IMG/VR virus record: IMGVR_UViG_3300029448_000272
Coordinates: 1-29,632 of that record
Source of the DNA: a virus
Length of the DNA: 29,632 bases
Direction: 5' to 3' (one strand)
The notes under the pieces were generated by a model, which saw only the letters and a list, made by a program, of their open reading frames with translations, was not told the DNA's origin and did not search any database. Of this stretch, positions 2,414 to 27,636 are shown piece by piece; positions within the stretch are counted from its first letter, which is position 1; every line of letters begins with the position of its first letter. Made by a program: the position numbers and the translations under genes.

Positions 2414-2428
2414 TTATTACCTCTGTAT

Positions 2429-4441
2429 TTAAGGAGTTACTTTAGTCACTTGAACGCCGTTGATCGTTTGAGATCCCCCCGAAGAACCATTGAACTTGGG
2501 TGTTCCGTATGGCCTATTACCAATCCCGTGTACGATGTCTAGGTAAGACTCGCGCAACCTAAGCAAGTTGCGTTTAAGCTGCTCTGGAGACTGTGATTGC
2601 TCGACGTTACTCAGAACACTCTGGAGCAACAGGTTCTCTTGGTTCGACACGTTACCCAGCGCACCTCCTGTCGGTGATGCCTCACGCATTGACTGTAGTT
2701 TATCGAAGCCCACGTTGGCTCTGACTGTATCGAGCATGGTTCTGAGGTCATTGGCCTCTGTACCGCCTATACCAGACATGATCTTGCCAAAGAAGCCTGT
2801 GGTGTTACCGCCCATACCTGTGACTTTGTTGAACAGACCGTCAATGTCGTCATTGATGATAGGCATGATGTCATCAATTGTTGATGTCACAATGCGGCTA
2901 GATACTCTGGCTGCGTTGTTGTCTTTGACTTGCTTCTTTTGAGCAGCGTCCATGTCGGCTTTGTATTTCTCAAGAGCAGCAGAACCTTTTGCATCCATGA
3001 TTGCGCCATACTCTTGACCAGCCCTATCGATGGCGTTTAAGCCGCCCGTAGCTGATCCACCTACCATAGCTGATCCAATGCGGATCAAATCACTACCATC
3101 GATGCTGGCTGTTGGCAGGGTTGTGAGGCCAGTGGCGTTTCTACGTCCCTCAGATGCCTTAGCTGCTGATGCTGCTTGTGCGTTTCTCAGTATTGATTGG
3201 TTTTCAGTGCTGAGTGCGCCTGTTATTGGGGCAGGAGGGTCTGGGTTCAAGATAGCGGATGAATGATCTATTGGGTATTGAGTGTTTGCCCCAGAAGACA
3301 GAAGACCTTGCTCGAAAGCTAGATCAGCGTCAGCTAATGCTGCATTACTTCTTATTTTAGGCATTCCAATGTTAGGAGCATTATATTGACCAGTGGGTTC
3401 ATAACGGAGGTCAGCATCACTTAGTGCTGCGTTGGGTTGCATCATATTACCCAAACCTACGTTTGGTGCATTAGTTTGGGCACGTTCATACGCCAAGTCT
3501 GCGTCAGCTAATACTCCGTCTGGCTGCATCATATTACCCAAACCTACGTTTGGTGCATTCATCATCTGGGGTGGAAGATTACCGACAGGCTGGGGTGGTT
3601 GTCCCAAACCAATGCGGCGTCTGACAGCGGGATCGTCTACATCAATGGTTTCCATTGAACGCTGACCTTCATCGAAGACATCGCCTTCTGGATTAGTAAC
3701 ATTTAAGTTATCTTCTGCTCTTAGGACAGTAGCCGCACCGCCCTGCTGCCTCGCTGCGTTATCCAGACCTATCTTTAAAATAGCGTCGTTATCTCCTGCG
3801 CCAAGAGTAGTACCCGCTGCTTCTGCCAGTGCGCCTGTGGTGGGTAGTTCAGATAAAGCGGGTTGTGGTACTGTCTCAGCAGCCAGCATCTCTGCTACCA
3901 TTTGTGGGATAGCTGACTCAGGAACCCGTGCTGCCCTAAGCTGCTCTGTAAGCTCTGCTCGTCTAGCGGCTACAGAAGTATCCAGACCTACTGCAATACT
4001 GTTTTTAGGTAGAGCCATCTTATTCTCCATAAACTTAGCTGCGCGGGTCACATATTGTTGTGTTTCGTCTGGCAGATCATTGAATTTACCGCCTCTGGCT
4101 AACCAGTTCTCAGTGGCCTGTGGACCCATGTTGTAGGCAGCTAGTTTCTGTAAGGGCGTTTTGAAACCGTGATAGTTCGAGTAACCAGCTACATAGCGAC
4201 CAGCGAGACTACGGGCTTTTGTTGGATCTAGGACATCAGATAGGGGAATATTGTCGGGCATCTTGTAGCCCATGCTGTGTAGGTTCTTGGGCATAAACTG
4301 GTATGCGCCTCTGGCACCTTTTTTACTTGTAGCCACAGCAGCCTTGGCGGGGCTTAGGTGTCCTGTCTCTGCGTGTCTGATAGCGTCAAGAAGGAATGGT
4401 TGCTGTATGTTTGGATCATTGAGGATGCCAAGATTACGCAC
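2429..4441 (-). CDS. Internal virion protein with lytic transglycosylase domain
   Basis: 670 residues. The N-terminal 130 residues look like a soluble lytic transglycosylase: candidate catalytic Glu25 in RHAETGH, then GARGAYQFMP near residues 44-53 and AAYNMGP near 103-109. This family cuts peptidoglycan between MurNAc and GlcNAc; in T7 such a domain in gp16 helps DNA enter the cell. The middle (about residues 290-385) holds three diverged copies of a 29-31 residue unit beginning NAPN(V/I)G and containing ADADL or SDADL. The rest is Ala/Ser/Asn-rich with no recognised domain. It starts directly after the gp14-like gene and is followed by the long internal protein. In T7 the transglycosylase sits on the last, largest core protein; here it is on a separate shorter one. 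The enzyme domain call is firm; the ejection role is inferred. Confidence 0.85.
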   Translation of the reverse strand: MRNLGILNDPNIQQPFLLDAIRHAETGHLSPAKAAVATSKKGARGAYQFMPKNLHSMGYKMPDNIPLSDVLDPTKARSLAGRYVAGYSNYHGFKTPLQKLAAYNMGPQATENWLARGGKFNDLPDETQQYVTRAAKFMENKMALPKNSIAVGLDTSVAARRAELTEQLRAARVPESAIPQMVAEMLAAETVPQPALSELPTTGALAEAAGTTLGAGDNDAILKIGLDNAARQQGGAATVLRAEDNLNVTNPEGDVFDEGQRSMETIDVDDPAVRRRIGLGQPPQPVGNLPPQMMNAPNVGLGNMMQPDGVLADADLAYERAQTNAPNVGLGNMMQPNAALSDADLRYEPTGQYNAPNIGMPKIRSNAALADADLAFEQGLLSSGANTQYPIDHSSAILNPDPPAPITGALSTENQSILRNAQAASAAKASEGRRNATGLTTLPTASIDGSDLIRIGSAMVGGSATGGLNAIDRAGQEYGAIMDAKGSAALEKYKADMDAAQKKQVKDNNAARVSSRIVTSTIDDIMPIINDDIDGLFNKVTGMGGNTTGFFGKIMSGIGGTEANDLRTMLDTVRANVGFDKLQSMREASPTGGALGNVSNQENLLLQSVLSNVEQSQSPEQLKRNLLRLRESYLDIVHGIGNRPYGTPKFNGSSGGSQTINGVQVTKVTP
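3300..3562 (-). repeat. Coding tandem repeat (29-31 aa unit, three copies)
   Basis: Three copies of a unit starting NAPNVG or NAPNIG lie in the transglycosylase protein. Two copies share an identical 35-base block at 3438-3472 and 3525-3559, a period of 87 bases (29 codons). The third copy, near 3360-3395, has diverged. The near-identity of two copies suggests a recent in-frame duplication. Confidence 0.85.
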
Positions 4442-4443
4442 TT

Positions 4444-5502
4444 TTAACGACCACCTCTATACCCCATGCCCTGATAAGCAGGAGCAGAAATCATCTGCAT
4501 ATTCGGTCTATTATCTTGCATTGAATAAGCAGCTTGTGTCTGCTGATTGAACATTGGAGACAAGTATTGCTGACCAAATCCAAAGCCAGCCATAGCACCA
4601 CCGATACCAGCCATCATTGGGTTGACTAGGTTAGGGGATTGGTTGCTTGTCTGAGGTGCGCGACCAAGGATACCAGCGTTGTACTTGTTGTACTGATTCA
4701 TCGCAAAGTCGCGGTCTCCCTCAAACTGACCTTTGGCTGCGTTGTACTGGTTTTGTTGGTCTTTCTGTTGAACGTCACCAGCAGCACCCTGCATCTTCAT
4801 TGCATCCATGCCCTGACCAAAGGCTGTAGAGTAAGCACCACCCATAGCCTGATTAGCTGCCATCTGATTACGGAACGCATTGTTTTGCTCAGTCAGTGAT
4901 CTGTTCATGAGATCATCATTGATACCCGCTGTTACATCAGCCGCTCTGTCCATATAGTCACGACCAGCGATAGCTTGGGCTACACCCGCCCGTGATGAGT
5001 TGGTGTTGCCTGTTCCTGATGCACCCATTCCAATGCTTGTCAGTGTGTTCTCTTGGAGGTTTCTTGTGCTGTCTCTGAGCGCACGGTCAACTAGGGGCTG
5101 GGAGTTGTCTAGGGCATACTGCCTAGCGGTAGCCATACGATCCTCACCAGCTTGGTTGTATAAGTCTGCGTAATTCTGAGCAAAGCCACCTGTGGTGTTC
5201 ATCATGTTATTGGCGGCGTTCATGCGATCAGTGCCAAAGCCATACATATTGTTCATGGCATTGTTTTGCATGTCATTCATGCCAGCGTATGTAGGGCCAC
5301 CATAGTAACCAGCGTCTAAAGCACTATTAAGAGCGTCTGTGCCGCCTTTATACATATCTTGGATGTAGGGTCTGGCATCAGTGTAACCACGGTTGTTCAT
5401 CTCAGTTGCGTAGTCAGTGGCTCTGCGTTGTTGCTTTGCGGCTTTGTTTGCAAAGTAGCCGCCCACCACTGCACTTCCGATGTGTGCTACTGGATTACCC
5501 AT
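4444..5502 (-). CDS. gp14-like internal virion protein
   Basis: 352 residues from the ATG at 5502. That start is preferred because GGAGATATGAA lies just upstream and it overlaps the end of the preceding gene, while an upstream in-frame ATG at 5568 would lie inside that gene. The N-terminus (MGNPVAHIGSAVVGGYFANK) resembles the short hydrophobic Gly/Ala starts of internal virion protein B. The body is rich in Asn, Met, Gln and Ala (AANNMM, NQYNAAK), suits long helices, and contains GIGGAMAGFGFG near residues 300-311. The C-terminus is GYRGGR. The order gp13-like, this gene, then large core proteins matches T7 genes 13-14-15/16. T7 gp14 forms the outer-membrane part of the ejection channel. The assignment is by position and composition. 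Confidence 0.7.
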   Translation of the reverse strand: MGNPVAHIGSAVVGGYFANKAAKQQRRATDYATEMNNRGYTDARPYIQDMYKGGTDALNSALDAGYYGGPTYAGMNDMQNNAMNNMYGFGTDRMNAANNMMNTTGGFAQNYADLYNQAGEDRMATARQYALDNSQPLVDRALRDSTRNLQENTLTSIGMGASGTGNTNSSRAGVAQAIAGRDYMDRAADVTAGINDDLMNRSLTEQNNAFRNQMAANQAMGGAYSTAFGQGMDAMKMQGAAGDVQQKDQQNQYNAAKGQFEGDRDFAMNQYNKYNAGILGRAPQTSNQSPNLVNPMMAGIGGAMAGFGFGQQYLSPMFNQQTQAAYSMQDNRPNMQMISAPAYQGMGYRGGR

Positions 5503-5503
5503 T

Positions 5504-5809
5504 TCATATCTCCAATTTGTATATATCAGCCTCACCGTCAGTTGCTGTAAAAGCGTAGGTAAAACCAAACATTCTTATGAACTTCTCTTGTATTTCAGTG
5601 TGTCTTAGGCAGTAGACAGGTTGGGTCCGTAGAGCCAGCAGACTGTTAAAGTCAGAGGACAGCCGTTTCTTTGCTTGTCTTGTCCATCGACAAACAACAT
5701 CACAGTGAACAAACGTAAGCCTGTCACCATCAGGAAGATCTAGGTATTCGTAGTAGATCGTATGCTCTTCAGGACGCACAAAGACAGGAACCTTTATACC
5801 GCTGCCCAT
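5504..5809 (-). CDS. gp13-like (GNAT-fold-like) internal virion protein
   Basis: 101 residues. Read by eye, the sequence follows the layout of T7 gp13: a beta segment, WTRQAKKRL leading into a helix, a strand QPVYCLRH, then EIQEKFIRMFGFTYAF, which looks like the last part of an acetyltransferase-like fold where a helix precedes a GF turn. T7 gp13 is slightly longer (about 138 residues) and is needed for core assembly. No acetyl-CoA loop of the form Q/RxxGxG/A is visible, so enzyme activity is doubtful. The gene overlaps the preceding one by 16 bases, and its stop codon overlaps the Shine-Dalgarno region of the gp14-like gene, which suggests translational coupling. The start lacks a strong ribosome site. 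Confidence 0.6.
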   Translation of the reverse strand: MGSGIKVPVFVRPEEHTIYYEYLDLPDGDRLTFVHCDVVCRWTRQAKKRLSSDFNSLLALRTQPVYCLRHTEIQEKFIRMFGFTYAFTATDGEADIYKLEI

Positions 5810-6072
5810 GCCGTACCGTTGTAAACGACAAGGCCACTAAAGCCGTTGCCTAATGGGTTCCAAGGACTGACTGCGTATCTGACCATGCCTTTGATTGGGT
5901 TGTCGGGTGGAGCATCAGCTACTTGGATTGCAGCTTCAGCTAGTGTCCTGATTGCAGTCTCAATACGCTGTAGCTCATCCTGCATATACCTACGAACACC
6001 AGCCTCAATAACTGGATACTGCTGCCTGACATACTTGTTGACTACAACATTGGTATTATCTGAGACAGCCAT
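5794..6072 (-). CDS. Small tail-region protein of unknown function
   Basis: 92 residues. ATG codons at 6075 and 6072 are adjacent; the second is chosen because GGAG is then seven bases away. The first half is a charged helix (RRYMQDELQRIETAIRTLAE), suited to coiled-coil oligomerisation. The second half is a compact beta-like module with GMVRYAVSPWNPLG and ending VYNGTAWAAV. From general familiarity, short modules with a GMVRYA start and a YxGxAW end recur in tail-region genes of marine podoviruses, but I cannot name a family. It overlaps the tail protein before it and the gp13-like gene after it. A minor structural role is inferred from context only. Confidence 0.65.
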   Translation of the reverse strand: MAVSDNTNVVVNKYVRQQYPVIEAGVRRYMQDELQRIETAIRTLAEAAIQVADAPPDNPIKGMVRYAVSPWNPLGNGFSGLVVYNGTAWAAV

Positions 6073-7688
6073 CATCTAGCTCCTGTCGGTGTCACATCCA
6101 AATCAAAGCCACTAAACTCAAAGTCTTTGTTGTCGGTTACAGTCATCTTGTAACTAAGATACCGACCAGCAGCCCGACTATCTATCTTATGTTCAGAAGC
6201 CATATCAAAGGTGACAGCGGATGCGTAGGTTGGTGTAGCTCTGGGTATGTCAGATGCACCAAACTGAAACGTGAGTGTAGTGTCTGCTGTGTTTACTGTA
6301 TCAGCTTGTGGATAGATCCTAGTAACCACCATGTAACTTGAAACGGCAGTGCCAGCTTCATCTAGGTCCAAACCAATGCGCTCAAGCACTGGAGGTTTGG
6401 TGGCCTCTGTATCAAGCTGGAATGTCAGCTTGCCCTCATCAGCCAGATCAACGCCATACAGTTTGTCGCTTGTCAGACCATCTGCTGAGTTGTCTTCGCC
6501 CACCATGATAGCATGGACATCAAAGTTATCTTCTTGGTCATAGTATGAGCCACCAACAAGAGCATAGGTGAGGGAGGTAGCATTAGCGTATGTGTTTACA
6601 GAATTGACATTCGCTGATGTACCAGATGATACATTAGGCAAATCCATAAATGACCATGTGTTGTTTCTATAGTTGTAAACCGCTGCTCTATTGCACCGCG
6701 TAGCGTTTGTAAAAGAGACATGCTCATCACCTGACTGATAACAGAAGTAGATTTCGTTTAATGCCTCGTTATGCTGCACAAAGCACCTGTCGGAGTTCTG
6801 TACGTTTAAACCTTTGAAGATAAAGTTCTTCACACGCTCATCGCAGATGGACTGCTTGGTAGTGCCGTCGTGGGCATAGATATCTTGGGGGCCAAAGACA
6901 AAGTGCTTGCCTTCGATCTCGACAGAACAGTTCTGGTTGATGATGCCACTGTCAGTGAACAGCTTACGGAAGTTAAAGATAAACGTGCCGCCGACAAACT
7001 CCATCTGCCACACTTGGTCACTGGAGTAGATGATAAAGTTAGAGCCTAGTGTGCCACCATCGATAATCTCAGTTTGCATCTGCACTAGATCGTTGAAGCC
7101 CGCACTTCTAGTTGTATCCGTTTCATCCCAGCTATCGGGGATTGCGTTAGCTGTTACTAGGTTCGAGAACCTCACACGGTTGGGAAAAGCTGTTGTGCCT
7201 TCTGTTATGTTTAAGGCAATCAAGAAATCACCGTATGAACGAAGCGCACCCGCTCTGAAGTTAGAGGGCCAGTTACCAAGGTCAACAAAGTTGGTGCCAC
7301 TTGGCAGTCTGTAGACAGGCACACGGTCTTCACGGTTGATGTAGGTGACATCAGCTAGTGAGGTTCCTGTGAAGGGGCGGGGGTCTGAAGAGGCTGAGAT
7401 GGAACCAGATCTGTTGTTTACAGCTCCTGCTGAGTATTCATGAATTGCGAAAGTGTCTGAGACCATGATTACTGTGTCGTAGCCGTTGGCAGGGGTGATA
7501 CCGTAGACATGGCGCGGCGTGAATCCTAATGATGCTTTAACTGTTCTAAAGATTGGTGCGCGGGTTACTTTGCCTTCATCGAACCTTACGTTCATGGCAT
7601 GTGAGAAGGCGTTGAGGGGGATGTTGTAAGGAGACTTATCGCTCACCACACCTTCGGAGCCTAGCTCCCTGACAGGTATGATCGACAT
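6072..7688 (-). CDS. Tail nozzle / DNA-stabilisation beta-propeller-type protein
   Basis: 538 residues. The pattern of an N-terminal region followed by beta-rich repeats (FRAGALRSYGDFLIALNI; GSNFIIYSSDQVWQMEFVGG; KHFVFGPQDIYAHDGTTKQSI; AAVYNYRNNTWSFMDLPNVSS) resembles propeller-type tail proteins that plug the DNA channel, such as the P22 gp10 group, and serves the place of T7 gp12. The C-terminus (RYLSYKMTVTDNKDFEFSGFDLDV) looks like a final beta-sandwich. It is shorter than T7 gp12 (about 794 residues). The gene begins one base after the fibre gene stop and overlaps the small tail-region gene at its end. A tail role is well supported by context; the exact family needs a profile search. Confidence 0.75.
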   Translation of the reverse strand: MSIIPVRELGSEGVVSDKSPYNIPLNAFSHAMNVRFDEGKVTRAPIFRTVKASLGFTPRHVYGITPANGYDTVIMVSDTFAIHEYSAGAVNNRSGSISASSDPRPFTGTSLADVTYINREDRVPVYRLPSGTNFVDLGNWPSNFRAGALRSYGDFLIALNITEGTTAFPNRVRFSNLVTANAIPDSWDETDTTRSAGFNDLVQMQTEIIDGGTLGSNFIIYSSDQVWQMEFVGGTFIFNFRKLFTDSGIINQNCSVEIEGKHFVFGPQDIYAHDGTTKQSICDERVKNFIFKGLNVQNSDRCFVQHNEALNEIYFCYQSGDEHVSFTNATRCNRAAVYNYRNNTWSFMDLPNVSSGTSANVNSVNTYANATSLTYALVGGSYYDQEDNFDVHAIMVGEDNSADGLTSDKLYGVDLADEGKLTFQLDTEATKPPVLERIGLDLDEAGTAVSSYMVVTRIYPQADTVNTADTTLTFQFGASDIPRATPTYASAVTFDMASEHKIDSRAAGRYLSYKMTVTDNKDFEFSGFDLDVTPTGAR

Positions 7689-7689
7689 A

Positions 7690-8631
7690 CTACCAGACCC
7701 ATATCTCTACATAGCCAGCATGACCCGCTGTTGCAGATGAACTTCCAGCTGCACCAGCTGCGCCATAGGAAATGGTTAGCGTCTCGCCGCCCACGTTGTT
7801 GCCTGTGACGTATTTGTGAACCACGTTTCCGTAGGTTGAGGTTGAGGCTGGTCCATCGTAAGTGTAGTTGCCGCCGTCACCTTTAGTTGAACGACCACCA
7901 GCAGAACCAGCACCCACAAGAACATCACCGCCTGTGGAGCCTGTGATTACGTCAAAGGTAGACATATTGGTATCATAGCGGCCCGCACGACCACCCGTGG
8001 CAGTTATGGCTATGGAAAGTGTGGAGTTGGTAACTGTGGTGCTGCCACCATCTGTGCCGTTTGTTACGCCTAGACCGCCACCAGACCCAAAAACGTGTGT
8101 ACCACCGCCACCACCGCCTGATGCGCGGATCATGATGGCTTGGGCATTTGAGGGGATGCTGTAGTTGCCGCTTGTCACTATTGTGATGACTTGAGGGTAG
8201 CCAACTACGTTATTGATTTGGGTTTGTACATTGCTTGTCACGCCATCCAGATAACCTAGTTCGGTGCTAGTCACTGCTGATACAGCCACCTTGCCACTGC
8301 TGTCAGACATAAGCGCACGGGATGCTGTGAGGTCACTGGATGCGATAGTAGATGCACCGCCTGAGATAGTGGCCTGTTTAGCATTAAGCTGTGTTTGTAC
8401 GTTAGATGTCACCCCGTCCACATAGTTTATCTCTGCTGTGGTAGCTGTGACGCCATCTAGGAGGTTAAGTTCAGCCTGTGTTGCAGTTACCGCGCCAGTT
8501 ACATTAGGCAGCGTAGCTTTAATGGTGGACTTGAGAAGACGTAGGTGGTCGTCGGCTTGGGCTAGACCATCAGTGGCAGCAGGGTTTGAAGCATTGAGGC
8601 TATCTATATATGTGCCAGTTTCTAATGCCAT
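7690..8631 (-). CDS. Tail fibre / glycine-rich adhesin
   Basis: 313 residues from the ATG at 8631, preceded by AAAGGAAAC; an in-frame ATG at 8754 lacks such a site and adds an unlike basic leader. The N-terminal 45 residues (MALETGTYIDSLNASNPAATDG...ADDHLRLLK) resemble attachment segments of phage fibres. Then come repeats of the type LLDGVTATTAEINYVDGVTSNVQTQLN, seen three times with variation, a common fibre shaft motif. The last 115 residues are glycine-rich (GGGGGG, GGRAG, GSTGGD, GAAGAAG) and end AGYVEIWVW, like the glycine-rich receptor-binding tips of fibre adhesins. It is the first gene of the leftward virion cluster, directly before the tail protein. A host-recognition role is inferred. 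Confidence 0.8.
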   Translation of the reverse strand: MALETGTYIDSLNASNPAATDGLAQADDHLRLLKSTIKATLPNVTGAVTATQAELNLLDGVTATTAEINYVDGVTSNVQTQLNAKQATISGGASTIASSDLTASRALMSDSSGKVAVSAVTSTELGYLDGVTSNVQTQINNVVGYPQVITIVTSGNYSIPSNAQAIMIRASGGGGGGTHVFGSGGGLGVTNGTDGGSTTVTNSTLSIAITATGGRAGRYDTNMSTFDVITGSTGGDVLVGAGSAGGRSTKGDGGNYTYDGPASTSTYGNVVHKYVTGNNVGGETLTISYGAAGAAGSSSATAGHAGYVEIWVW

Positions 8632-9083
8632 ACTTAGTTTCCTTTGTTTTCTCTGGGATGGTCCTCCAATGAAGAAGGTTGGAACAACAACAACAACAGC
8701 AACCTTTAGCGGCTTTTTGGAATTGAGATCAGCGCGAGGGTATCGGGGGTCCAAAAGCAGCGCAGGAGTCCCGAAACGCAGCGTGATCCTGTGTAAACCG
8801 TTGTAATACTTAGATTCTTATGTGCTGCTGATGTTGCATCAGCTACTCAAAAGAACCGACAAGCCATAGACATTAGACATTAGGCGGTTCAGTTCTGAAT
8901 ATTGTCTGAGGTGGGCTGTTTTTGTCTTTGTAAGAAATCGGGACTTATGAACCTAAGTGACTTGGGTTGTCTTGGTTCTAAGTTCGACAAAGATTAGCTG
9001 TAACAGCTACCACTTTGCCACCTATTACTGTGTCTAAGTCTTATCAATTGCATCTCATGTTCCCACCACACGTTGAACCAATG

Positions 9084-9106
9084 TTCGTTAAGGGTGGACA
9101 CAAATG
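9084..9106 (-). promoter_or_regulatory. 23-bp element, copy 1 (candidate phage promoter or operator)
   Basis: Read on the - strand this contains CATTTGTGTCCACCCT followed by TAACGAA. It matches the + strand at 13662-13684 with two differences in 23. AAACAGCAAT occurs just upstream in this orientation and a similar AACAGCAGCAAT precedes the other copy. This copy points at the virion genes, about 450 bases before the fibre gene. A T7-type polymerase needs promoters of about this length, but a repressor operator is equally possible. Confidence 0.5.
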
Positions 9107-9299
9107 CTTATTGCTGTTTAGGGTGCTTTCGTGGCCTTTGGTTAGTGCTTCTGGCAGTGCGTAAGCACCCATTATGAACACAGCCAAAGGTCACACCTTC
9201 GACACTTATATATATGTACCTCTCTGGGCACTTGAGTTGCTGATGCGTATTTGTGTCGTCAAATGCACATTTATTGTTGACATATGGAATCGCGTGATT

Positions 9300-9416
9300 C
9301 ACTGTCGCAACATTGGCTAGAGACCTGAGATGACAGCTGACTTCTAATCAGCAGGTTGGGGGTTCGAGATACCCCGCTTAATCATCGAATTGGTCTCTAG
9401 CGACACACTGTCGCAA
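9300..9416 (+). other. attP: attP candidate: tRNA-Arg(TCT)-like core within nested repeats
   Basis: Bases 9336-9368 read like the 3' half of a tRNA: anticodon stem GCTGA/TCAGC, loop CTTCTAA (anticodon TCT, Arg), variable AGGTT, then GGGGGTTCGAG. After 9368 the T arm fails (a 9-base loop before CCCC) and there is no D arm or CCA, so this is not a working tRNA. It is enclosed by a perfect 10-base inverted repeat (9316-9325 and 9392-9401) and then by an 11-base direct repeat CACTGTCGCAA (9300-9310 and 9406-9416). A partial tRNA sequence in a phage with a tyrosine integrase is the usual signature of an attachment site. The integrase gene is 2.8 kb downstream, farther than usual. Confidence 0.5.
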
Positions 9417-9429
9417 GGGAGACAAAACG

Positions 9430-9732
9430 ATGAACACAGGTTATCAACTTATCAAAGCTGCTAAGGCTCAGAACCTTAGTTTCCACGTTTTCTACGAAAC
9501 TGATGACGCATATGATGCGCGTGATCCTGATACGGGTTACGAACCAGCACATTCTCTGGACTCGACACTCGATCACCTATGGAGCGAGGCGCAAGCCTGT
9601 GACTCTGCCAACTTGCGGTTTGCTGACGGGTCATGGGTTTACCTGATCCACGGTAATGCACCTGACGAAACCATTAGCGACTACACCAACAGCGGCACCG
9701 CCAAGGCTCTGGTCGAAGGGGGTGCGTCATGA
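9430..9732 (+). CDS. Early protein of unknown function (100 aa)
   Basis: First gene of the rightward early run, with AAGGGAGAC upstream of the ATG. 100 residues, strongly acidic (ETDDAYDARDPDTGYEP) with an aromatic strand-like segment FADGSWVYLIHG. No membrane segment, signal peptide or known motif was recognised. Its stop codon overlaps the next ATG (ATGA), so the two are probably translated together. Being the first gene after the control region, it is likely expressed at once on entry; a host-directed role is possible but not shown. Confidence 0.75.
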   Translation: MNTGYQLIKAAKAQNLSFHVFYETDDAYDARDPDTGYEPAHSLDSTLDHLWSEAQACDSANLRFADGSWVYLIHGNAPDETISDYTNSGTAKALVEGGAS

Positions 9733-10115
9733 ATATAAATATCTCAAAGCTGGCTGACGGCGAGATCGGCTCCAAGCGTGATCGCGTCACCAATCACTTC
9801 TATAAAGAGCTTTCAACTATCCACGCGGCAGGGGCTACGCCTTGCCGCTTTAGGTTCTACTGTAGCGGCAGTGTGATTCATTGCATTGCGTGGATTAGTG
9901 GCACCGCAGTCCATGGCTCTGGCTATGGCAAGGCTGGTGGCTATGGCTATTGCAAAGAGTCTGCCGCGATGCACGATGCTATCTGCAACGCTGGAATCAC
10001 TATGTCGGAGCATTGGGCGGGCATGGGAGACACCCGTATGCGCTCTGCTGCGCTTGGCATTGCCAAGGCTGTCTCAGGCAAGCGCAAGTTCCATTTGCAT
10101 ATAGCGCACGGGTGA
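9729..10115 (+). CDS. Early protein of unknown function (128 aa)
   Basis: 128 residues starting with an ATGA overlap with the gene before. Features: a strand-like segment PCRFRFYCSGSVIHCIAWI, a Gly/Tyr-rich loop GSGYGKAGGYGYCKESAAMHDA, and a basic C-terminus GKRKFHLHIAHG. Four Cys and several His are present but not in a clear zinc-finger spacing. The YGKAGGYGY segment followed by a helix looks like a conserved loop. I do not recognise the family. Confidence 0.75.
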   Translation: MNINISKLADGEIGSKRDRVTNHFYKELSTIHAAGATPCRFRFYCSGSVIHCIAWISGTAVHGSGYGKAGGYGYCKESAAMHDAICNAGITMSEHWAGMGDTRMRSAALGIAKAVSGKRKFHLHIAHG

Positions 10116-10125
10116 GGGGGCAGTC

Positions 10126-10254
10126 ATGAGCAACCTTATCACAAACATCATTGGAACCTTAATCTTAGTTGCAGCCACGATCCCGTGGCTCAACATCTGG
10201 GGGCCAGAATACACCTATTGGGGCTTGATGGTCCGGCTGGCTGGTGCGTCATGA
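10126..10254 (+). CDS. Small membrane protein (42 aa)
   Basis: A 42-residue reading frame with GAGGGGG upstream of its ATG, fitting exactly between the 128-residue gene and the next, whose ATG overlaps this stop (ATGA). Residues 4-25 (LITNIIGTLILVAATIPWLNIW) form one hydrophobic segment, so an inner-membrane location is likely. The C-terminal half is short and Trp/Tyr-rich. Tiny membrane proteins in phage early runs often act on the host envelope or on competing phages, but nothing here shows the role. Confidence 0.65.
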   Translation: MSNLITNIIGTLILVAATIPWLNIWGPEYTYWGLMVRLAGAS

Positions 10255-10523
10255 ACAGCTACTTTATCACACAGAGGGGTGTCACTCAGATAGGTCAAGA
10301 CCTGACCACGATTGCTGACGCACACGGACTCGATAATGTGGGGCGTTGGTGTCCTGACGCGGTTGCAAACGAGATCACCGGCCAAGCTGATTTCGATCTT
10401 GAAATGCAGCGCAACGGTCACTTCGTTCATGAGCTAGGCATAAGATCACCACGCGGTGATGTCCTAACTATCACCATAGACCGCGCACAGTGTGAGGCTC
10501 TCAGCTTCGAGGTGACATCATGA
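10251..10523 (+). CDS. Early protein of unknown function (90 aa)
   Basis: 90 residues from the ATG at 10251, which overlaps the stop of the small membrane protein. An upstream in-frame ATG at 10185 would lie inside that gene and is not used here. The protein is acidic, with MNSYFITQRGVTQIGQDLTTIADAHG at the start (helical) and strand-like LTITIDRAQCEALSFEV at the end. No catalytic motif or membrane segment is visible. Its stop overlaps the next ATG. Confidence 0.75.
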   Translation: MNSYFITQRGVTQIGQDLTTIADAHGLDNVGRWCPDAVANEITGQADFDLEMQRNGHFVHELGIRSPRGDVLTITIDRAQCEALSFEVTS

Positions 10524-10738
10524 GTACCCCTAGACCCCCTTGGTCGCGCTGGTCATCGGCGCGACTGTTTCAAGCTGACTTTTACAACCTGAGATGGCCT
10601 GTGTGCGGCACCCGCTATGTGTGGGCTGTCGTGGGCTACAAGTGGGTCCATCTCTGCACACCGATCCAACATGACCGCTGGCGCATTAGTCGCGCCGATT
10701 GGGACGCATTACCGACATCAGAAAGGAAACCAAGCTAA
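10520..10738 (+). CDS. Trp-rich small early protein (72 aa)
   Basis: 72 residues with seven Trp and many Arg. The stretch from about residue 28 (CGTRYVWAVVGYKWVHLCTP) followed by DRWRISRADWDAL looks like a small SH3-like beta barrel, with alternating hydrophobic strands and a final helix. Such small barrels often bind nucleic acid or protein partners. Starts by ATGA overlap and ends by TAATG overlap, so it is locked into the early run. Function unknown. Confidence 0.75.
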   Translation: MSTPRPPWSRWSSARLFQADFYNLRWPVCGTRYVWAVVGYKWVHLCTPIQHDRWRISRADWDALPTSERKPS

Positions 10739-11016
10739 TGGAATACACAGTTATCAAAGAAGGCACTAGACGCCTTGACGCGACACCGACTTGGGAGGGT
10801 CTCGTGAGACCCCTGATCGCATTAGTTCATGAGGGCGAAACCTACGAGTCACGACAGATGGCAAAGGGAGAGCTTCGCCGCATGGCGAGGCTTGCCGACT
10901 GTTGGGTCGAGTACCGTAAGGAGCAATTAAAAGCTGAAGAAGCAGAGCGCGACACTGCTGCAAAACGCTTCGAGACAATGCTTTATGGCGCTGATGAGCA
11001 GGAGGCAGAGCAATGA
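10738..11016 (+). CDS. Charged helical early protein (92 aa)
   Basis: 92 residues from the ATG at 10738, which shares a base with the stop before it (TAATG) and has AAAGGAAAC upstream; an in-frame ATG at 10699 lies in the previous gene. The protein is mostly helical and highly charged (YRKEQLKAEEAERDTAAKRFETML), with a short strand-like start MEYTVIKEGTRRLD. No motif recognised. It could form a coiled coil through its C-terminal half. Confidence 0.75.
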   Translation: MEYTVIKEGTRRLDATPTWEGLVRPLIALVHEGETYESRQMAKGELRRMARLADCWVEYRKEQLKAEEAERDTAAKRFETMLYGADEQEAEQ

Positions 11017-11333
11017 GCAACAAAGCATGGCACATAAGCTATATCTCCGCGATGGTCGGACCCTGCACCGCTACGACAGAAGATGGCGACATGGCATGGG
11101 GAGAAGGCAGTGACTATTCAGTTAGGTTGCTGGATATGGACAACGACGGTGAAAAGCTGCTGCTGCATATCGATCCATCAGTTCTGATTGACGACAAGCT
11201 AGACGAGCTAAAAACATATCAATTGGTTGGGTATGCGATCCATCACGACTTGCCGTATTCGGTGACTCCGTGGGACGAGTTCATATCAGATGACGAGCGC
11301 GACGCTCACCCAAGTTCTGAGGTGCTGTCATGA
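11013..11333 (+). CDS. Acidic early protein of unknown function (106 aa)
   Basis: 106 residues, starting by ATGA overlap. Strongly acidic (ATTEDGDMAWGEGSDYS; LLDMDNDGEKLLLHIDPSVLIDDKLDEL; FISDDERDAHPSSE). Small acidic proteins in early phage regions sometimes mimic DNA, for example some anti-restriction proteins, but acidity alone does not establish this. Its stop overlaps the next ATG. Confidence 0.75.
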   Translation: MSNKAWHISYISAMVGPCTATTEDGDMAWGEGSDYSVRLLDMDNDGEKLLLHIDPSVLIDDKLDELKTYQLVGYAIHHDLPYSVTPWDEFISDDERDAHPSSEVLS

Positions 11334-11695
11334 ACGCATTTGCAAAAGTGGCGGCAGAACACGCGACGGTGGAGTGGTCGATATATCGAAGCGTCAGGCC
11401 ACTCGACGGAGCCTACCGCGCTAGAGAGCCTGATGTTTGGAAGCTGGACTTTCGAGCCTTGATTAGAGGCGACCGCAACCGACTCCGCAAAGGCACCTAC
11501 GAGCTTGTGTACGAGCGCGACGGTATCAAAGCGCGAGGGTACTTCGATGTCGATGGGGCTGGTTTCTTTGCAGACCCGCGACACCTGATGGGCACCATTA
11601 CCGACATGCGCGACGCGACGGGCTACTGGGGCCGCTACATCGAAGGCTTTTACAAAAACCAATACGGCGAGATTGCCGTGAACATTAGTCACTGA
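11330..11695 (+). CDS. Early protein of unknown function (121 aa)
   Basis: 121 residues, starting by ATGA overlap. The middle has beta-like segments (RKGTYELVYERDGIKARGYFDVDGAGFF) and the end is aromatic (ATGYWGRYIEGFYKNQYGEIAV). The net composition is near neutral with many Arg. No membrane segment or catalytic signature was seen. It is followed after eight bases by the next gene, which has its own GAGGAG site. Confidence 0.75.
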   Translation: MNAFAKVAAEHATVEWSIYRSVRPLDGAYRAREPDVWKLDFRALIRGDRNRLRKGTYELVYERDGIKARGYFDVDGAGFFADPRHLMGTITDMRDATGYWGRYIEGFYKNQYGEIAVNISH

Positions 11696-11706
11696 GGAGA
11701 TCTGTG

Positions 11707-12234
11707 ATGGACTGCATAGAGCAAAAACCCGACACACTGCAATTTAAAGTAAGCTACGCGAGGCCGCTCATCAGCTTAGTGGACTATGACGATAGCGACA
11801 CAGATAGGTTGTTAGTAAGCGGTTACTACATCAAGCGACTGTTACGAGAAACCATCGACTGTTGGAACCTAGAACCAAGGGTCGTGCGTGATAATAAAGG
11901 GCGAGTGGCAAAGGTTAATCAGAACCCTTACTGGTGCGCTTACCGCGACATTCTTTTGAACAACCAGTTCCACCCAGAGGATGTCGTCACTTTGCACAAG
12001 CATTTAAGCGAGGGTTTTCAAAAGGCCATAACGCTAAAATTAGAGGCCATCGAAGAGCTAAAGCAAAACTACAACGACGATCTGATTAACAATGAGCAAT
12101 GTCAGAAGCTAATTGGGTTTCTTGAAGAAACCTTGAAGCACTTACAAAACGACAGGTGTAGTTGTTTGACGCAGCTTTTGGACTTGATAATGCAGCTTCA
12201 TCAGCAGCATGAACTATGGGAGACACCACAATGA
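11707..12234 (+). CDS. Early protein of unknown function (175 aa)
   Basis: 175 residues. A GTG at 11704 is directly followed by ATG at 11707; the ATG gives better spacing from GAGGAG. The first half mixes strands and helices (YARPLISLVDYDDSDTDRLLVSGYYIKRLL); the second half is long-helical (FQKAITLKLEAIEELKQNYNDDLINNEQC...FLEETLKHLQNDRCSCLTQLLDLIMQLHQQHE), suggesting a coiled coil. Its last bases overlap the integrase start (ATGA). Proteins made directly before an integrase can be directionality or control factors, but there is no helix-turn-helix I can point to. Confidence 0.75.
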   Translation: MDCIEQKPDTLQFKVSYARPLISLVDYDDSDTDRLLVSGYYIKRLLRETIDCWNLEPRVVRDNKGRVAKVNQNPYWCAYRDILLNNQFHPEDVVTLHKHLSEGFQKAITLKLEAIEELKQNYNDDLINNEQCQKLIGFLEETLKHLQNDRCSCLTQLLDLIMQLHQQHELWETPQ

Positions 12235-13133
12235 CCAACCAATATACATTCACTCAATATGCTGAGTCTCACCACGACATAATCTTTCGCAAGAGCGGCG
12301 ACAAACACAAGAAAGATGTTCGAGGACGCATTTTAAGGTTCGGAGAGTTTCGAGGCGTTGGCGACAGGCTGATCAACGACGTAAGAACAAACGACATACA
12401 TATATACATGGATCATGTCGTTAGTAACTTGAAGCTCTCAGAGTCTACGGCCAACCGCTACGGTGTAGCTGTCACTGCTGTGATGAACAACGCACTCGAA
12501 AACGGTATCGTGAGCCACAAGTGTTCTGTCGATCTTTATGAGGAACAACACGGCAGACCAAGGTACTTTAGTGACGAGGAAATACAGAAGATCACGACGT
12601 TTCTACGGTACTCCCGAAACGCATGGATGGAGCATATGTTTACCTTTGCGCTGCACACTGGCGCGAGGCTGGGCGAGATTATTCGAATCGGCGTGGATGC
12701 TGAGTTTTATTACGACGACGACGGTGATCCTGTCTTGTGGCTCCCTGACAGCAAGAACGGCTGTGAGAGGTACTTCCACCTCACAAAAGACTCAAAGGCC
12801 GCCTACGACGCTCTGAGGGCGATTAACGAGGGATTAGCAGAACGTGGTGGTAGGAAACGACACTTTTACTGCAACTCTGAGTTCTATCGCACTTGGTCGA
12901 GTATGCGACGCAAGATTGCTCCAAATGATAAGCATTTTGTGTTCCATGTCACACGACATACGGCGGCGACGCATTTCGCTAACCGACTGAATCTTGGCAG
13001 CTTAGTTATCAAGAATATCATGGGACACAAGCGCATGGAAACGACATCGAAATACGTCAAGCTGGAGACAGACACAGCTAAAGACGCAGCGACGAAGATG
13101 CAGACGCTTGCAGACGAGCGCAAAGCTAGTTAG
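12231..13133 (+). CDS. int: Tyrosine recombinase / phage integrase
   Basis: 300 residues from the ATG at 12231, which overlaps the previous stop and has GGGAG upstream; an in-frame ATG at 12216 sits on that GGGAG and is less likely. Catalytic residues are visible: Arg146 in HTGARLGE, Lys175 in DSKNG, His239 and Arg242 in HVTRH, His266 in MGHKR, and nucleophile Tyr275 in TSKYVK. This is the complete set for the family. The N-terminal 100 residues fit a core-binding (SAM-like) domain. There is little room for a separate arm-binding domain, so the protein is short compared with lambda Int (356). It integrates phage DNA into a host site, probably a tRNA gene given the attP candidate at 9336-9368. 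It is last in the early run, before a 588-base control region. Confidence 0.95.
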   Translation: MTNQYTFTQYAESHHDIIFRKSGDKHKKDVRGRILRFGEFRGVGDRLINDVRTNDIHIYMDHVVSNLKLSESTANRYGVAVTAVMNNALENGIVSHKCSVDLYEEQHGRPRYFSDEEIQKITTFLRYSRNAWMEHMFTFALHTGARLGEIIRIGVDAEFYYDDDGDPVLWLPDSKNGCERYFHLTKDSKAAYDALRAINEGLAERGGRKRHFYCNSEFYRTWSSMRRKIAPNDKHFVFHVTRHTAATHFANRLNLGSLVIKNIMGHKRMETTSKYVKLETDTAKDAATKMQTLADERKAS

Positions 13134-13584
13134 CGTCATAGGTATCGTAAATGACTTCATCGTCAGGTGGGCTGGAGGGTCAGCCACCGACCAAACTTGA
13201 GGAGCAAAGTAGAATGTTTCAACTACATATTAAAAACGACAATCACCAAGCAAATGCCATCAGATGTAAACTTACATTTCACAATATAAACCCGATGTGT
13301 GCCCCACCAACTTCATCAAATCCTGCTTCGTTGATCAGACGGATTGCATGTTTAATAAGCCCACCAAGCGGCCCACCCTCCGGTTCACATATCAATAATC
13401 ACGACGATTGGGCAATGGGACCGCCGATAAAGCATAAGCCTCTTAAAAAAGCTACAAGTGACCAATTAAATAAATTAAGAAGACGCAATAGTTGGCGTCG
13501 GAGGGCTTTCCACGAAGCCTGTTTTTACACAAACTTCGGTTTTACATTCAAGAGTTCAGCACCCCCAACAACACTTTAAGTCTA

Positions 13585-13619
13585 ACCACTTTTAAGCTGT
13601 TTTTAGCCTAGAAAGTGGT
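13585..13619 (+). terminator. Hairpin, possible terminator after integrase
   Basis: 8-bp perfect stem ACCACTTT (13585-13592) with AAAGTGGT (13612-13619) and a T-rich 19-base loop, followed by CGTTTT. The downstream T run is short, so termination is possible but weak; a regulatory structure is an alternative. Confidence 0.35.
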
Positions 13620-13627
13620 CGTTTTGC

Positions 13628-13643
13628 GCTGTTCCAAAACAGC
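13628..13643. promoter_or_regulatory. Palindrome, candidate operator
   Basis: Perfect 6-base arms GCTGTT and AACAGC around CCAA, 19 bases before the second 23-bp element. The size and symmetry fit a dimeric repressor site. No repressor gene is recognised in the window, so the binder is unknown. Confidence 0.35.
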
Positions 13644-13661
13644 AGCAATTACAATGACTTA

Positions 13662-13684
13662 CATTTGTGTCCACCCTAAGCGAA
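13662..13684 (+). promoter_or_regulatory. 23-bp element, copy 2 (candidate phage promoter or operator)
   Basis: Contains CATTTGTGTCCACCCT then AAGCGAA; matches the - strand element at 9106-9084 at 21 of 23 positions. It ends 37 bases before the chosen start of the RNA polymerase gene and points at it. Placement right before the polymerase and, in mirror orientation, before the virion genes suggests a shared control site for the two outward programmes. Confidence 0.5.
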
Positions 13685-13721
13685 TAGCGGCGGCGGAAAT
13701 CACAATGAAATGGGGAGTGTT

Positions 13722-16457
13722 ATGGATCATTTAAAATCACCCGACAACACCATCATGAGTGGCAGCAATCCTTTTAACAAACTGTCACAGATCAAGTTCT
13801 CTTTATCTCCTGATCATCAAGAGGAGCTAAGACGCGAAGCTGACATGCGACGGCTTGGTCATGAGCGGTTCATGGAACGTCTTAAAAACTCAAAGACGAG
13901 CAGCAACCAAAAGAATACACAGAATGTAATCAGTAATGAGCAAGTAGCTGTTGTCGATTACTTAGATAGCATTATCAAAGATCAACATGAGCCAACAAAA
14001 GGGCGACAGTTCTCTTGGCTCGACAAAGTTGAAGGCATCGACACACAGACTCTAGCTGTCCTTGCTTTGTCGATCATGTTCGATGCGGCTGGAGCTTCAG
14101 CTAAAAGGACTCCCACTATTACTAAACTTGGTCGAGCCGCTGAGATGGAACAATGGGCTTTGTGGCTCAGAGACCAAGACAAGGAGGTCGAGCGACGCAT
14201 ACTTTCTAAAGTAATGAAAGACCACACAAGCTACAGGTATCGTCGGACAGCTATGAAGGCCATTGTCAGCAAAGTGGCAACAGAGCGTGAGTGGGATATC
14301 CCTACTTCTTGGTCGTCTGGTAGTAGCGACGCTGAGTGTACGAAAGTTGGTAGCTTACTGTTCAACGCTGTAATGACTGCCACAAAGCTGTTCGAGGTCT
14401 ATGAGGATGTCGAGCGCACGACGCACAACGGCAAAACAAAGCACAAAACGATCTACAGAATTGGCTTGATGTCGGAAGCCGCGAGTGAGTTAAACGCGAT
14501 GAACGAGGCAAGTTCTTGGATGGAGCCTATGTTTGGCCCAATGACAGTGCCCCCTGTTCCTTGGCAGACTTACAAAGACCTGACAAACCTAGACCCAGCG
14601 CGACGGACTGCTGGTGTGTATCTTGATGCTGCACTGGGTGGCTTGGTGCCTTTGGTGCGTGGAGCAAACCCTCAGCAGCAGGAAATGCTATATAATGGCA
14701 TTAAAGACGGCTCAATGGACCCCATGATGAGGGCACTAAACGCCATACAAGCTACTCCTTTTGCCATCAACACACCTATCCTCGAAGCAGTAGCGTGGTG
14801 TTGGGATAACAACTTTGTCGCTGGTAAGTTCCCACACTCAAAAGAACTAGATGCTCTGGAGTTCCCAGCAAACTACGATCAGTTACCTGAGAAGGCAAAG
14901 AAACGCTGGAGACTAAAAGCTCGACGGCGTGTCAAGCGTAACAAATCGATCAAAGGTGGCATCGCTCAGATGAACCAAGACTTGAGAGTGGCGAGTGAGC
15001 TTGTCGATATTCCGTTCTATGTTGGAGCAAGCTGGGACTTTCGAGGCCGTGTGTATCCTGTCAGCACTTTTAACCACTGCCGCTCAGATCACATTAAGCA
15101 CATGATGGTTCTGGCAAACAAAGAGTTAGTTGGAGAGCAGGGTGCCTTGTGGATTGCTTTGAAGGTCGCTGACCTTGGTGACTTCGGAAAGATTAGTAAG
15201 CAGTCGTTACAAGCGAGGCTTGAGTGGACAGAGGCGAATCTTAGGAAGATTGTCGAGGTTGCTCAGGATTTCAAGCTGTCTTTTGAGGGCACAGACGACA
15301 CAAAGCTGTACTGGAGTGACGCCGACAAGCCCTTTGGTTTTCTCGCTGCTTGCATTGAGCTAACCAACTACTTGGCTGACCCTCTAAACTACGAGTCTGG
15401 GTTCCCTTGTGGGCTTGATGGTAGCAATAGTGGACTTCAGCACTTCAGCGCATTGGCACTCAACGAGGTCGAGGGTTCGTATGTGAATCTGGTGCCAAGC
15501 GACAAGCCAGCGGATCTCTATGAGACTGTGGCGGCAGTGGTGCGCGAGGCTATCGACAACGACACCAACTACACGGTGCATGGGCGCAACCTTAAACCTG
15601 TGATCAAGGCTTGGCAGGAGTTCAGAGTTGGTCGGAAAACTTTAAAGCGTAATGTGATGACCAAGAACTATGGCTCTAACCTATATGGCTTTAAGCAGCA
15701 GATTATCGATGACTTCATGGAGCCAATCAACGATCTAATCGATGAGGGCAAGCCGTGGCAAGGACATACAGTCAATCCCTTCGAGGTCGAGGCTTTCAAC
15801 AAGAAGACAGGGGAGAGCCGTGGGCCAGATGAAGGCAGACTAGCTGCTGACTACTTATCTCGTAAAAGCTGGACAGCAGTGAACACCGTGGTCAAGGGTG
15901 CGAATGAAGGCATGGCTTTTATCCAAGCTCTTTGTCAGGCGTGTAGTAAAGAGGACAAGCTGATGTCGTGGGTTACACCGCTTGGGTTTCCTGTGGTCAA
16001 CAGATACACCAAGCTCCTTAGCAAACCTATCAAGGTGTTCTTGTACGACAGGGAGTTCAAGTCTCTCAAGAGAACACAGGTAACACTGAAGAACCCCGAT
16101 GGTCGTTTGGTGGACCGTAGGAAGGCTGAAGCATCGTGTGCTGCCAACCACACACACTCTCTGGACTCAAACCACCTACATGCGACAGTTCTCAAATGTC
16201 TGGATAACTATGGCATCAAAGACTTCTTTTTGATCCACGACAGCTTTGCAACAACGCCAGCGAGGACAGGTGATCTTTACTACGCAATCCGCGAGGCTTT
16301 CATTGATCAATATGACAATGGTTGTCTTTACGAGAAGCTAAAACAGAGTGTTGTCGAGCAGTTAGAGAAACCAGAAAAAGCTAATCTACCAGACATACCC
16401 GCCAAAGGTACTCTGGACATGAAGAAGATTAGGGACAGTGAATACTGTTTCCTATGA
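13722..16457 (+). CDS. T7-type single-subunit RNA polymerase
   Basis: 911 residues from the ATG at 13722, chosen because GGGGAG precedes it; an in-frame ATG at 13710 would add four residues. The catalytic set of the T7 family is present: Asp566 in GLDGSNSGLQHFSA (T7 Asp537), Lys642-Arg643 and Tyr650 in KTLKRNVMTKNYGS (T7 Lys631, Arg632, Tyr639), and Asp840 in LIHDSFATTP (T7 Asp812). The C-terminus SEYCFL is the counterpart of the T7 FAFA foot. Length matches T7 (883). The enzyme transcribes phage genes from phage-specific promoters, freeing late expression from host polymerase. It lies after the integrase region and begins the replication cluster; the 23-bp element upstream may let it be self-activated or repressed. 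Confidence 0.97.
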   Translation: MDHLKSPDNTIMSGSNPFNKLSQIKFSLSPDHQEELRREADMRRLGHERFMERLKNSKTSSNQKNTQNVISNEQVAVVDYLDSIIKDQHEPTKGRQFSWLDKVEGIDTQTLAVLALSIMFDAAGASAKRTPTITKLGRAAEMEQWALWLRDQDKEVERRILSKVMKDHTSYRYRRTAMKAIVSKVATEREWDIPTSWSSGSSDAECTKVGSLLFNAVMTATKLFEVYEDVERTTHNGKTKHKTIYRIGLMSEAASELNAMNEASSWMEPMFGPMTVPPVPWQTYKDLTNLDPARRTAGVYLDAALGGLVPLVRGANPQQQEMLYNGIKDGSMDPMMRALNAIQATPFAINTPILEAVAWCWDNNFVAGKFPHSKELDALEFPANYDQLPEKAKKRWRLKARRRVKRNKSIKGGIAQMNQDLRVASELVDIPFYVGASWDFRGRVYPVSTFNHCRSDHIKHMMVLANKELVGEQGALWIALKVADLGDFGKISKQSLQARLEWTEANLRKIVEVAQDFKLSFEGTDDTKLYWSDADKPFGFLAACIELTNYLADPLNYESGFPCGLDGSNSGLQHFSALALNEVEGSYVNLVPSDKPADLYETVAAVVREAIDNDTNYTVHGRNLKPVIKAWQEFRVGRKTLKRNVMTKNYGSNLYGFKQQIIDDFMEPINDLIDEGKPWQGHTVNPFEVEAFNKKTGESRGPDEGRLAADYLSRKSWTAVNTVVKGANEGMAFIQALCQACSKEDKLMSWVTPLGFPVVNRYTKLLSKPIKVFLYDREFKSLKRTQVTLKNPDGRLVDRRKAEASCAANHTHSLDSNHLHATVLKCLDNYGIKDFFLIHDSFATTPARTGDLYYAIREAFIDQYDNGCLYEKLKQSVVEQLEKPEKANLPDIPAKGTLDMKKIRDSEYCFL

Positions 16458-16502
16458 CCATCTTTAGTGCAGTTGCTGCATAAGCAACGGCTAGAGATGT
16501 AA

Positions 16503-16552
16503 AGACCAAGAGGCCATGGACCCTGCCTCAAGCGGGGGCTTTGGTCTCTTGG
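16503..16552 (+). terminator. Hairpin with two alternative pairings after RNA polymerase
   Basis: In the 143-base gap after the polymerase gene, CCAAGAG (16506-16512) pairs with CTCTTGG (16546-16552), and AGACCAA (16503-16509) can instead pair with TTGGTCT (16541-16547). The two seven-base stems exclude one another. No T run follows, so it may act as an RNA processing or attenuation structure, not a simple terminator. Confidence 0.4.
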
Positions 16553-16600
16553 CACTTCTAGCCCCTAACAAAAACAAAAAGAATAGGCAGGAGAAACACC

Positions 16601-16786
16601 ATGCACCCTCGTGAGAGAGTGCTGGAACAGGCGAGGCTTTGCCAACTAAGAGGCCAACCAGTTCCAGTAGACCTATTAGCCAAAGCTGATGCACTAGGCA
16701 TCAGCATGACGCACATGGGTCAACCTAAGCCAGTAGACACAAACGCAGACAAAAAGGAGAAACCAAAATGGCTGCAACAAGAATGA
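16601..16786 (+). CDS. Small protein of unknown function (61 aa)
   Basis: 61 residues with GGCAGGAGAAACACC before the ATG, a strong ribosome site. The N-terminal half is helical (RERVLEQARLCQLRG, VDLLAKADALGI) and the tail is basic (DTNADKKEKPKWLQQE). It overlaps the SSB gene by 19 bases in another frame. Position between polymerase and SSB matches where T7-like phages keep small host-interaction genes, such as the host polymerase inhibitor gp2, but there is no visible similarity. Confidence 0.7.
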   Translation: MHPRERVLEQARLCQLRGQPVPVDLLAKADALGISMTHMGQPKPVDTNADKKEKPKWLQQE

Positions 16787-17298
16787 AATACACAACCCCT
16801 CAAGGCACCGCTGTTTACCCTTGGTTGAACAAGGCCGACAAAAAGTTTCGTGATGAAGGTGAGTTCAAGACCAGATTACTTGTAGACGCTGACAAAGCAA
16901 AAGACTTGGTTGATCAGATCAATGAGTTTGCACAGGACAATCTAGGTAAGAAGGTATCTAAAGCTCGTTTGCCTTATGAAACTGACGGTGACACAGGTCA
17001 GATCCTCTTCATAACTAAAAGCCAGTTTGCGCCCAAGTTTAAGGACAGCAGCGCACAAATGATGGTCGGTGAAATACCGCAAGTCTGGGGTGGCTCAACG
17101 CTGCGTGTCGCTGGGACGATGACCGCCTACGACAAAGGCGCAAACTGTGGTGTGTCCCTCAATTTAGGTGCAGTCCAAATCATTAAGCTGTCGGAGGGCA
17201 ATGGTAATGATGGTGACGACTTTGGGGCCGTTGAGGGTGGTTTCGTGGCACCGAAAGATACGAAACAAGAAACGGACGAGTCTGATTCCGACTTCTAG
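16768..17298 (+). CDS. Single-stranded DNA-binding protein (gp2.5-like)
   Basis: 176 residues, GAGAAACCAAA upstream of the ATG. The layout fits T7 gp2.5: a beta-rich OB-fold-like body (GTAVYPWLNKADKKFRDEGEFKTRLLV; GQILFITKSQFAPKF; STLRVAGTMTAYDKG; GVSLNLGAVQIIKL) and a highly acidic tail from about residue 150 ending ESDSDF. The terminal Phe on an acidic tail is the hallmark used to contact DNA polymerase and primase-helicase. Position before endonuclease I and primase-helicase matches T7 gene order 2.5-3-4. The body follows the pattern of marine phage gp2.5-like proteins more than T7 itself. Confidence 0.9.
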   Translation: MAATRMKYTTPQGTAVYPWLNKADKKFRDEGEFKTRLLVDADKAKDLVDQINEFAQDNLGKKVSKARLPYETDGDTGQILFITKSQFAPKFKDSSAQMMVGEIPQVWGGSTLRVAGTMTAYDKGANCGVSLNLGAVQIIKLSEGNGNDGDDFGAVEGGFVAPKDTKQETDESDSDF

Positions 17299-17692: not shown

Positions 17693-17712
17693 TTCACCAA
17701 GGGAGCAAGCGT

Positions 17713-27207: not shown

Positions 27208-27215
27208 ATGTGCCT

Positions 27216-27616: not shown

Positions 27617-27636
27617 GGCTTGCTGTAGCTTCAACT

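Follow-up and report, generated by a model that had tools for sequence, protein, structure and literature searches.

The locus considered here raises the question of what reads two mirrored copies of a 23-bp element that face outward from the early-integrase block of a T7-like phage genome. The window, i.e. the whole stretch of DNA that was analysed, is an entire linear virus record of 29,632 bases and possibly a fragment. The two copies might be promoters, repressor operators, integrase, packaging or replication sites, or a chance repeat. Comparison with relatives, based on sequence alone, indicates that both are very probably promoters of the phage's own T7-like RNA polymerase (RNAP).

A scan of the window located CATTTGTGTCCACCCT exactly at 9091-9106 on the minus strand and at 13662-13677 on the plus strand. 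At full length the left copy reads CATTTGTGTCCACCCTTAACGAA and the right copy CATTTGTGTCCACCCTAAGCGAA, the first 16 bases being the same and 21 of 23 identical overall. Coordinates and orientation of the two outward-pointing mirror copies were thus recovered as given in the original prediction, and no third copy, none having been noticed there either, was found: none lies within 3 mismatches of the 16-mer in the whole window, and the runner-up 18-mer match is 12/18. Both copies are intergenic, the left one directed at the minus-strand tail and virion genes and the right one at the RNAP ORF, which starts ~30-40 bp beyond it. The element is asymmetric, comprises ~17-23 bp and is repeated in sense ahead of transcription units. 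It forms the sole inverted exact 16-mer pair of the window; Markov-1 random sequences contained a mean of 0.13 such pairs, with at least one pair in 10 of 100 sequences. Within the window alone the pair is weakly non-random and proves little. The features of the locus are listed in Table 1.

Table 1. Position, strand and basis of the features surrounding the element pair in the window.
Feature	Position	Strand	Basis or remark
P_late (predicted late promoter for phage RNAP)	9084..9106	-	Exact 16-mer common with RNAP-side copy; equivalent position in 14/14 genomes
P_late core TGTCCACC	9093-9100	-	Predicted transcription start ~9087-9090, by spacing analogy
P_RNAP (predicted RNAP-gene promoter for phage RNAP)	13662..13684	+	Core exact in 27/39 dereplicated relatives
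P_RNAP core TGTCCACC	13668-13675	+	Predicted transcription start ~13678-13681
Late (virion) arm head	2429..8754	-	Tail protein first, then virion structural, ejection-type and internal virion proteins
Early block, small ORFs without assigned function	9430..12234	+	ORF list; element scan
Tyrosine integrase, final gene of early block	12216..13133	+	PF00589 E=2.5e-15; phrog_1 integrase
Hairpin in integrase/P_RNAP spacer	13585..13620	+	ACCACTTT...AAAGTGGT then CGTTTTG
T7-like single-subunit RNAP	13710..16457	+	PF00940 E=2e-79; phrog_414 E=5e-168; phmmer to T7 RNAP E ~1e-68
Inverted layout	Late arm 1-9106 and 25184-29575 versus 9430-24789		

The right copy stands between the integrase and the RNAP gene, and the late arm has the left copy at its 5' end. 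The genome encodes a cognate T7-like RNAP (PF00940, phrog_414, phmmer), and the closest solved structures to this ORF are T7 RNAP and its relatives; the true start is probably the ATG at 13722, with a GGGGAG ribosome site ahead of it, rather than the ORF start at 13710. Past the RNAP gene, the plus strand encodes SSB (phrog_112) and RNR (phrog_367), and for the ORFs between, their sequence and a gene order like that of T7 suggest endonuclease I, primase-helicase, DNA polymerase and exonuclease. The late arm matched phrog_6465 (tail), phrog_3287 (virion structural), phrog_4287 (DNA ejection) and phrog_2013 (lytic tail protein), and the coding start of its tail gene is probably at 8631, not 8754. 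A direct repeat of 35 exact bases (3438-3472 and 3525-3559) was observed within the 670-aa internal virion protein ORF, where 3438-3459/3525-3546 encodes APN(V/I)GLGNMMQP-like repeated motifs. Judged by position, the minus-strand ORFs at 25184-29575 appear to be of lysis or late type; if the map is circular or terminally redundant, they may form the other end of the late arm. A full tRNA-Arg (tct) gene is located between the convergent ends of both arms (24936-25012, minus strand). Within the window phage no in-sense element was found ahead of the early block by the element scan, and the early-block ORFs tested gave no Pfam hits above cut-off.

Stable hairpins are located directly upstream of P_RNAP at 13585-13640 (fold z-score -4.0 for 13570-13660). 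The hairpin listed in Table 1 possibly acts as a terminator for host-driven early/integrase transcripts; its outer stem CCACTTT/AAAGTGG is kept, with a different loop, in L018, the closest relative. Hairpins occupy the interval from integrase to element in the window as well as in L018, and those of L044 and L047 are terminator-like. Two further candidates were rejected: a terminator at 13503-13520, whose site is not kept in L018, and the palindrome GCTGTTCCAAAACAGC beside P_RNAP as an operator, which is weakened in L018. A sigma-70 promoter scan of 8.7-13.8 kb performed no better than on shuffled sequences and placed no host promoter for the early block. Most of the integrase-RNAP spacer (13134-13570) is absent from or unalignable in L018, forming a variable spot beside the integrase; the same was observed for a 176-aa ORF before the integrase (11704-12234). 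A tRNA-like stretch at 9313-9402, with an anticodon-arm-like CTGACTTCTAATCAG and a T-arm-like GGGGGTTCGAGATACCCC enclosed by GCTAGAGACC/GGTCTCTAGC, contains a block of more than 50 bases identical in L018; ARAGORN made no call, and the stretch is a candidate attP core for the integrase.

RNAP relatives were gathered from IMG/VR by a single-sequence search followed by a profile search, and dereplicated to 39 representatives with less than 85% RNAP identity to one another. The core TGTCCACC occurred exactly and in sense between -160 and +30 of the RNAP start in 27 of these 39 representatives (~1.1 expected), whereas the antisense, reversed and complemented control strings occurred in none at this position. 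It was also the commonest 8-mer in an unbiased count. The scan of window and relatives for the motif, which the original prediction had proposed as a check, with a lack of conservation counting against its promoter reading, therefore revealed conservation, and this reading was not refuted. The full consensus is approximately an AT-rich stretch followed by TT(G/A/T)TGTCCACC(C/T)TTAG. Relatives carry further in-sense copies ahead of the integrase/early genes, of SSB (by ~200 bp) and of the first late gene (by ~340-740 bp); in many of them the copies number 3-5 and are arranged in the manner of T7 class II/III promoters. The few antisense matches lay inside coding ORFs or were chance-like, apart from the late-arm copies of a clade with an inverted arm. 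L066, L067 and L079 have no copy before RNAP, but carry one before the SSB gene and, where the sequence is present, before the integrase/early genes; L067 also has one after RNR. The exact 16-mer was found in 15 stretches of IMG/VR and was relevant only in three T7-like contigs (one comprising L004 and L006; L016; L017), the remaining matches being consistent with chance. No such core was found before the RNAP of BB8, IME-DE1, CRP-804, CRP-125, HTVC031P or uncultured Deep1-KM23. A search for close prophages in bacterial genomes yielded none, the RNAPs found there being just 23-31% identical, so that no host is indicated.

Two observations concern the sequence behind the element. A short hairpin starts right after it in L046 (1045-1075), L047 (3034-3065) and L043 (9946-9970) (e.g. 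GTACACACACGCTGTGTAC), which looks as if the RNA begins with a 5' stem. An apparently non-coding leader of ~450 bp (8631-9090) separates P_late from the point at which the first late gene probably starts, and is highly conserved with L018; long leaders recur among relatives, and this one may hold a packaging/terminal-repeat signal or be a structured leader.

In a blind test, the best common 16-mer was sought between 190 bp around the RNAP start and 900 bp before the late tail gene. The element was the best common word in 14/14 genomes. Mean agreement of the best 16-mer was 15.4/16 within genomes versus 13.1 between genomes, the antisense control yielding 12.4, and none of 100,000 permutations reached the within-genome mean. 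The same method recovered the mapped promoter upstream of the RNAP gene of phage LUZ100, which served as a positive control. The concerted change could be followed in L018, whose RNAP is 92% identical to that of the window: both copies are altered alike (CATTTG to AACTTG, CCCT to CCCA), and the surroundings of its late copy are otherwise highly conserved with the window. Copies that are alike within and different between genomes indicate one reader per genome and a reader that differs between genomes.

The specificity loop of T7 RNAP reads the promoter through N748, R756 and Q758, whose role is established. By phmmer alignment, the corresponding residues in the window RNAP are K775, R788 and Q790 in a loop of approximately residues 764-793, the equivalence being one of sequence alignment. 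The combination K775/R788/Q790 goes with TGTCCACC, while R775 goes with TGTACACC, TATACACC, TTTACACC or TGTGACCC, K790 with TGTCCCCC, Q788/R790 with GGGACCCC and M775/K790 with TGTAACTG. By phage, the cores are TGTACACC in L069, TGTCCCCC in L107, GGGACCCC in L115 and TGTAACTG in L052. When the loop was masked for tree building, changes of loop and element fell into five separate lineages, and L052 was nested among K/R/Q phages. L113 and L116 are an exception, carrying V790 for Q790 yet retaining TGTCCACC. The element was not found in L096, L101, L105 and L106, all of which carry R775, and L095 has a single deviant copy, TGTCGACC. The covariation is correlative and comprises few lineages; it would identify the RNAP as the reader. 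The conserved position and sense, the way in which the copies change together and the loop covariation can all be observed directly in the sequences.

These observations bear unequally on the alternatives. Since ~10% of random sequences of window size contain an inverted 16-mer pair, the window alone cannot carry the promoter claim; conservation in relatives (27/39 at RNAP, 14/14 genomes in the blind test), however, removes chance as an explanation of the pair, and a repeat without function is already refuted, with a negligible probability left to it. Operators holding both programmes off had been named in the original prediction as the other option, i.e. sites at which a phage repressor would silence the RNAP/replication and virion arms in the lysogen, the RNAP itself not recognising the copies. 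The element is asymmetric, lacks dyad symmetry and is in sense with the downstream gene, its changes follow the RNAP specificity loop, and many relatives have 3-5 copies in a T7-like arrangement, with SSB among the genes preceded by one; all this argues against operators, even though placement is symmetric before both lytic units of an integrase-bearing phage, related temperate T7-like phages have MarR-type regulators before the integrase and MarR sites flanking an RNAP promoter were proposed (PMC10134795). A search by Pfam among the early ORFs tested revealed no repressor. Operators thus gained no positive support and are very improbable; a repressor, possibly a novel regulator, may act on or next to the promoters in the lysogen.

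The latter would amount to a dual use, in which RNAP promoters have flanks that bind a lysogeny regulator. This is an addition to the promoter reading and does not exclude it, but is itself unlikely: no palindrome or second common motif was found beside both copies, the outer flanks agree at 5.5 of 15 positions within genomes and at 4.6 between them, which is hardly a difference, and no candidate regulator was found. In its favour stands the model proposed for LUZ100, in which the phage promoter ahead of RNAP is blocked by a MarR-like protein (PMC10134795). Integrase arm-type sites, packaging signals or replication signals would agree with the way in which the copies flank the early-integrase block and the conserved tRNA-like stretch in the window phage. 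Spacing to the integrase is not kept in relatives, however, whereas the position before RNAP and late genes is, copies are also found distant from the integrase (before SSB, after RNR), and the element covaries with the RNAP, making this explanation slightly less probable even than operators. Promoters for the phage polymerase, which had been predicted together with autoactivation and late switching, have strong support from the conservation of position and orientation, from the concerted change and from loop covariation, while autoactivation itself is suggested by the layout.

All genes of T7-like phages usually lie on one strand. Late genes and RNAP are read in opposite directions in a single clade, made up of the window, L018, L043, L052 and L053, and are colinear in the remaining relatives with both late genes and RNAP. 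Under either layout, the late element marks the 5' end of the late arm, in sense, in all genomes whose leader sequence is present. Its presence in sense at the 5' end of the inverted arm explains the mirror geometry of the pair as a trace of arm inversion. The window keeps two promoters only, the integrase- and SSB-side copies of relatives being absent.

From this layout, one copy would autoactivate the RNAP gene and the other would fire the virion genes. After entry or exit from lysogeny, host RNA polymerase would transcribe the early/integrase block, and read-through past the integrase may seed the phage RNAP. The latter would start at P_RNAP (13662, plus strand), amplifying its own transcript and continuing across the replication genes as far as ~24.8 kb, and likewise at P_late (9106, minus strand), transcribing the whole late arm in the opposite direction. 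Two promoters would suffice because each arm is one long unit. We infer initiation at the element, seeding by host RNAP and positive feedback; the feedback and lysogeny steps are likely but unproven.

An element of this kind is already known from T7, Syn5 and LUZ100. The Pseudomonas phage LUZ100 (OP329100) is an integrase-bearing T7-like phage with a mapped phage promoter, phi1, between integrase and RNAP that is repeated downstream, and a model of self-activation, seeded by read-through of host transcription, has been put forward for it (PMC10134795). The window agrees with this model in having the integrase upstream of RNAP and a predicted phage promoter between them, and the hairpins of the window, L018, L044 and L047 match LUZ100 terminator T4, with which they may share their function. 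In contrast, LUZ100 differs in promoter sequence (AATTACCACACAGTCTTGGA) and number (eight, the annotated ones all lying on a single strand), its integrase has an annotated MarR-like regulator upstream, and its RNAP is ~27% identical to the window RNAP. Among the early ORFs of the window that were tested, Pfam gave no MarR hit. The RNAP of cyanophage Syn5 recognises ATTGGGCACCCGTAA, and two promoters serve its whole genome (PMC3950665). Syn5 and the window have in common a marine T7-like RNAP, two promoters, a similar CACCC.TA segment and similar spacing. The specificity bases upstream of CACCC differ, and the element does not match the 15-bp promoter ATTGGGCACCCGTAA, sharing CACCC.TA alone, which is resemblance and not membership. 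Promoters of the T7/SP6/K11 type (e.g. TAATACGACTCACTATAGGG) are likewise composed of an AT-rich upstream part and a short CAC-bearing specificity block followed by the start, and are read by the specificity loop. The element, however, has TGTCCACC(C/T)TTAG where the T7 type has GACTCACTATAG, so that this block of the T7-consensus class (TAATACGACTCACTATAG) is not matched by its core TGTCCACC(C/T)TTA; the window loop has K at the T7 N748 position and retains R756 and Q758. A promoter proven in vitro for the RNAP of Cronobacter phage Dev-CD-23823, AATGTATACCCCTATATACAC (PMC12272871), is similar in build to TGTACACCCTATAGG and TATACACCCTACGG of the R775 lineages. Identity of the window RNAP to the KpnP and Ro45Iw RNAPs described in PMC12272871 is ~24-25%.

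Neither the sequence class of the element nor the covariation series was found in the phage papers searched; overlap with Zhu 2025 (NAR) is possible. A further proposal, which is tentative, is that the clade holds a natural series of RNAP-promoter pairs, each orthogonal to the others, with a single substitution at the N748 or Q758 equivalent altering how one promoter base is read, and that the sub-clade of the window uses just two divergent phage promoters, placed on either side of a lysogeny block transcribed by the host; the pair would act as a compact lysis switch that arose when the whole late arm was inverted. The analysis defines a class of promoters for uncultured marine T7-like phages of one clade; dozens of uncultured relatives carry this signal, or a co-evolved form of it, at these positions. 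The natural covariation series ties polymerase loop residues to promoter bases and lends itself to direct tests using purified enzymes and synthetic DNA. An inverted late arm that brings its own promoter illustrates how such a phage can reorder its genome and still keep late transcription, and the arrangement supports the idea, so far based on LUZ100 alone, that integrase-bearing T7-like phages self-activate their polymerase.
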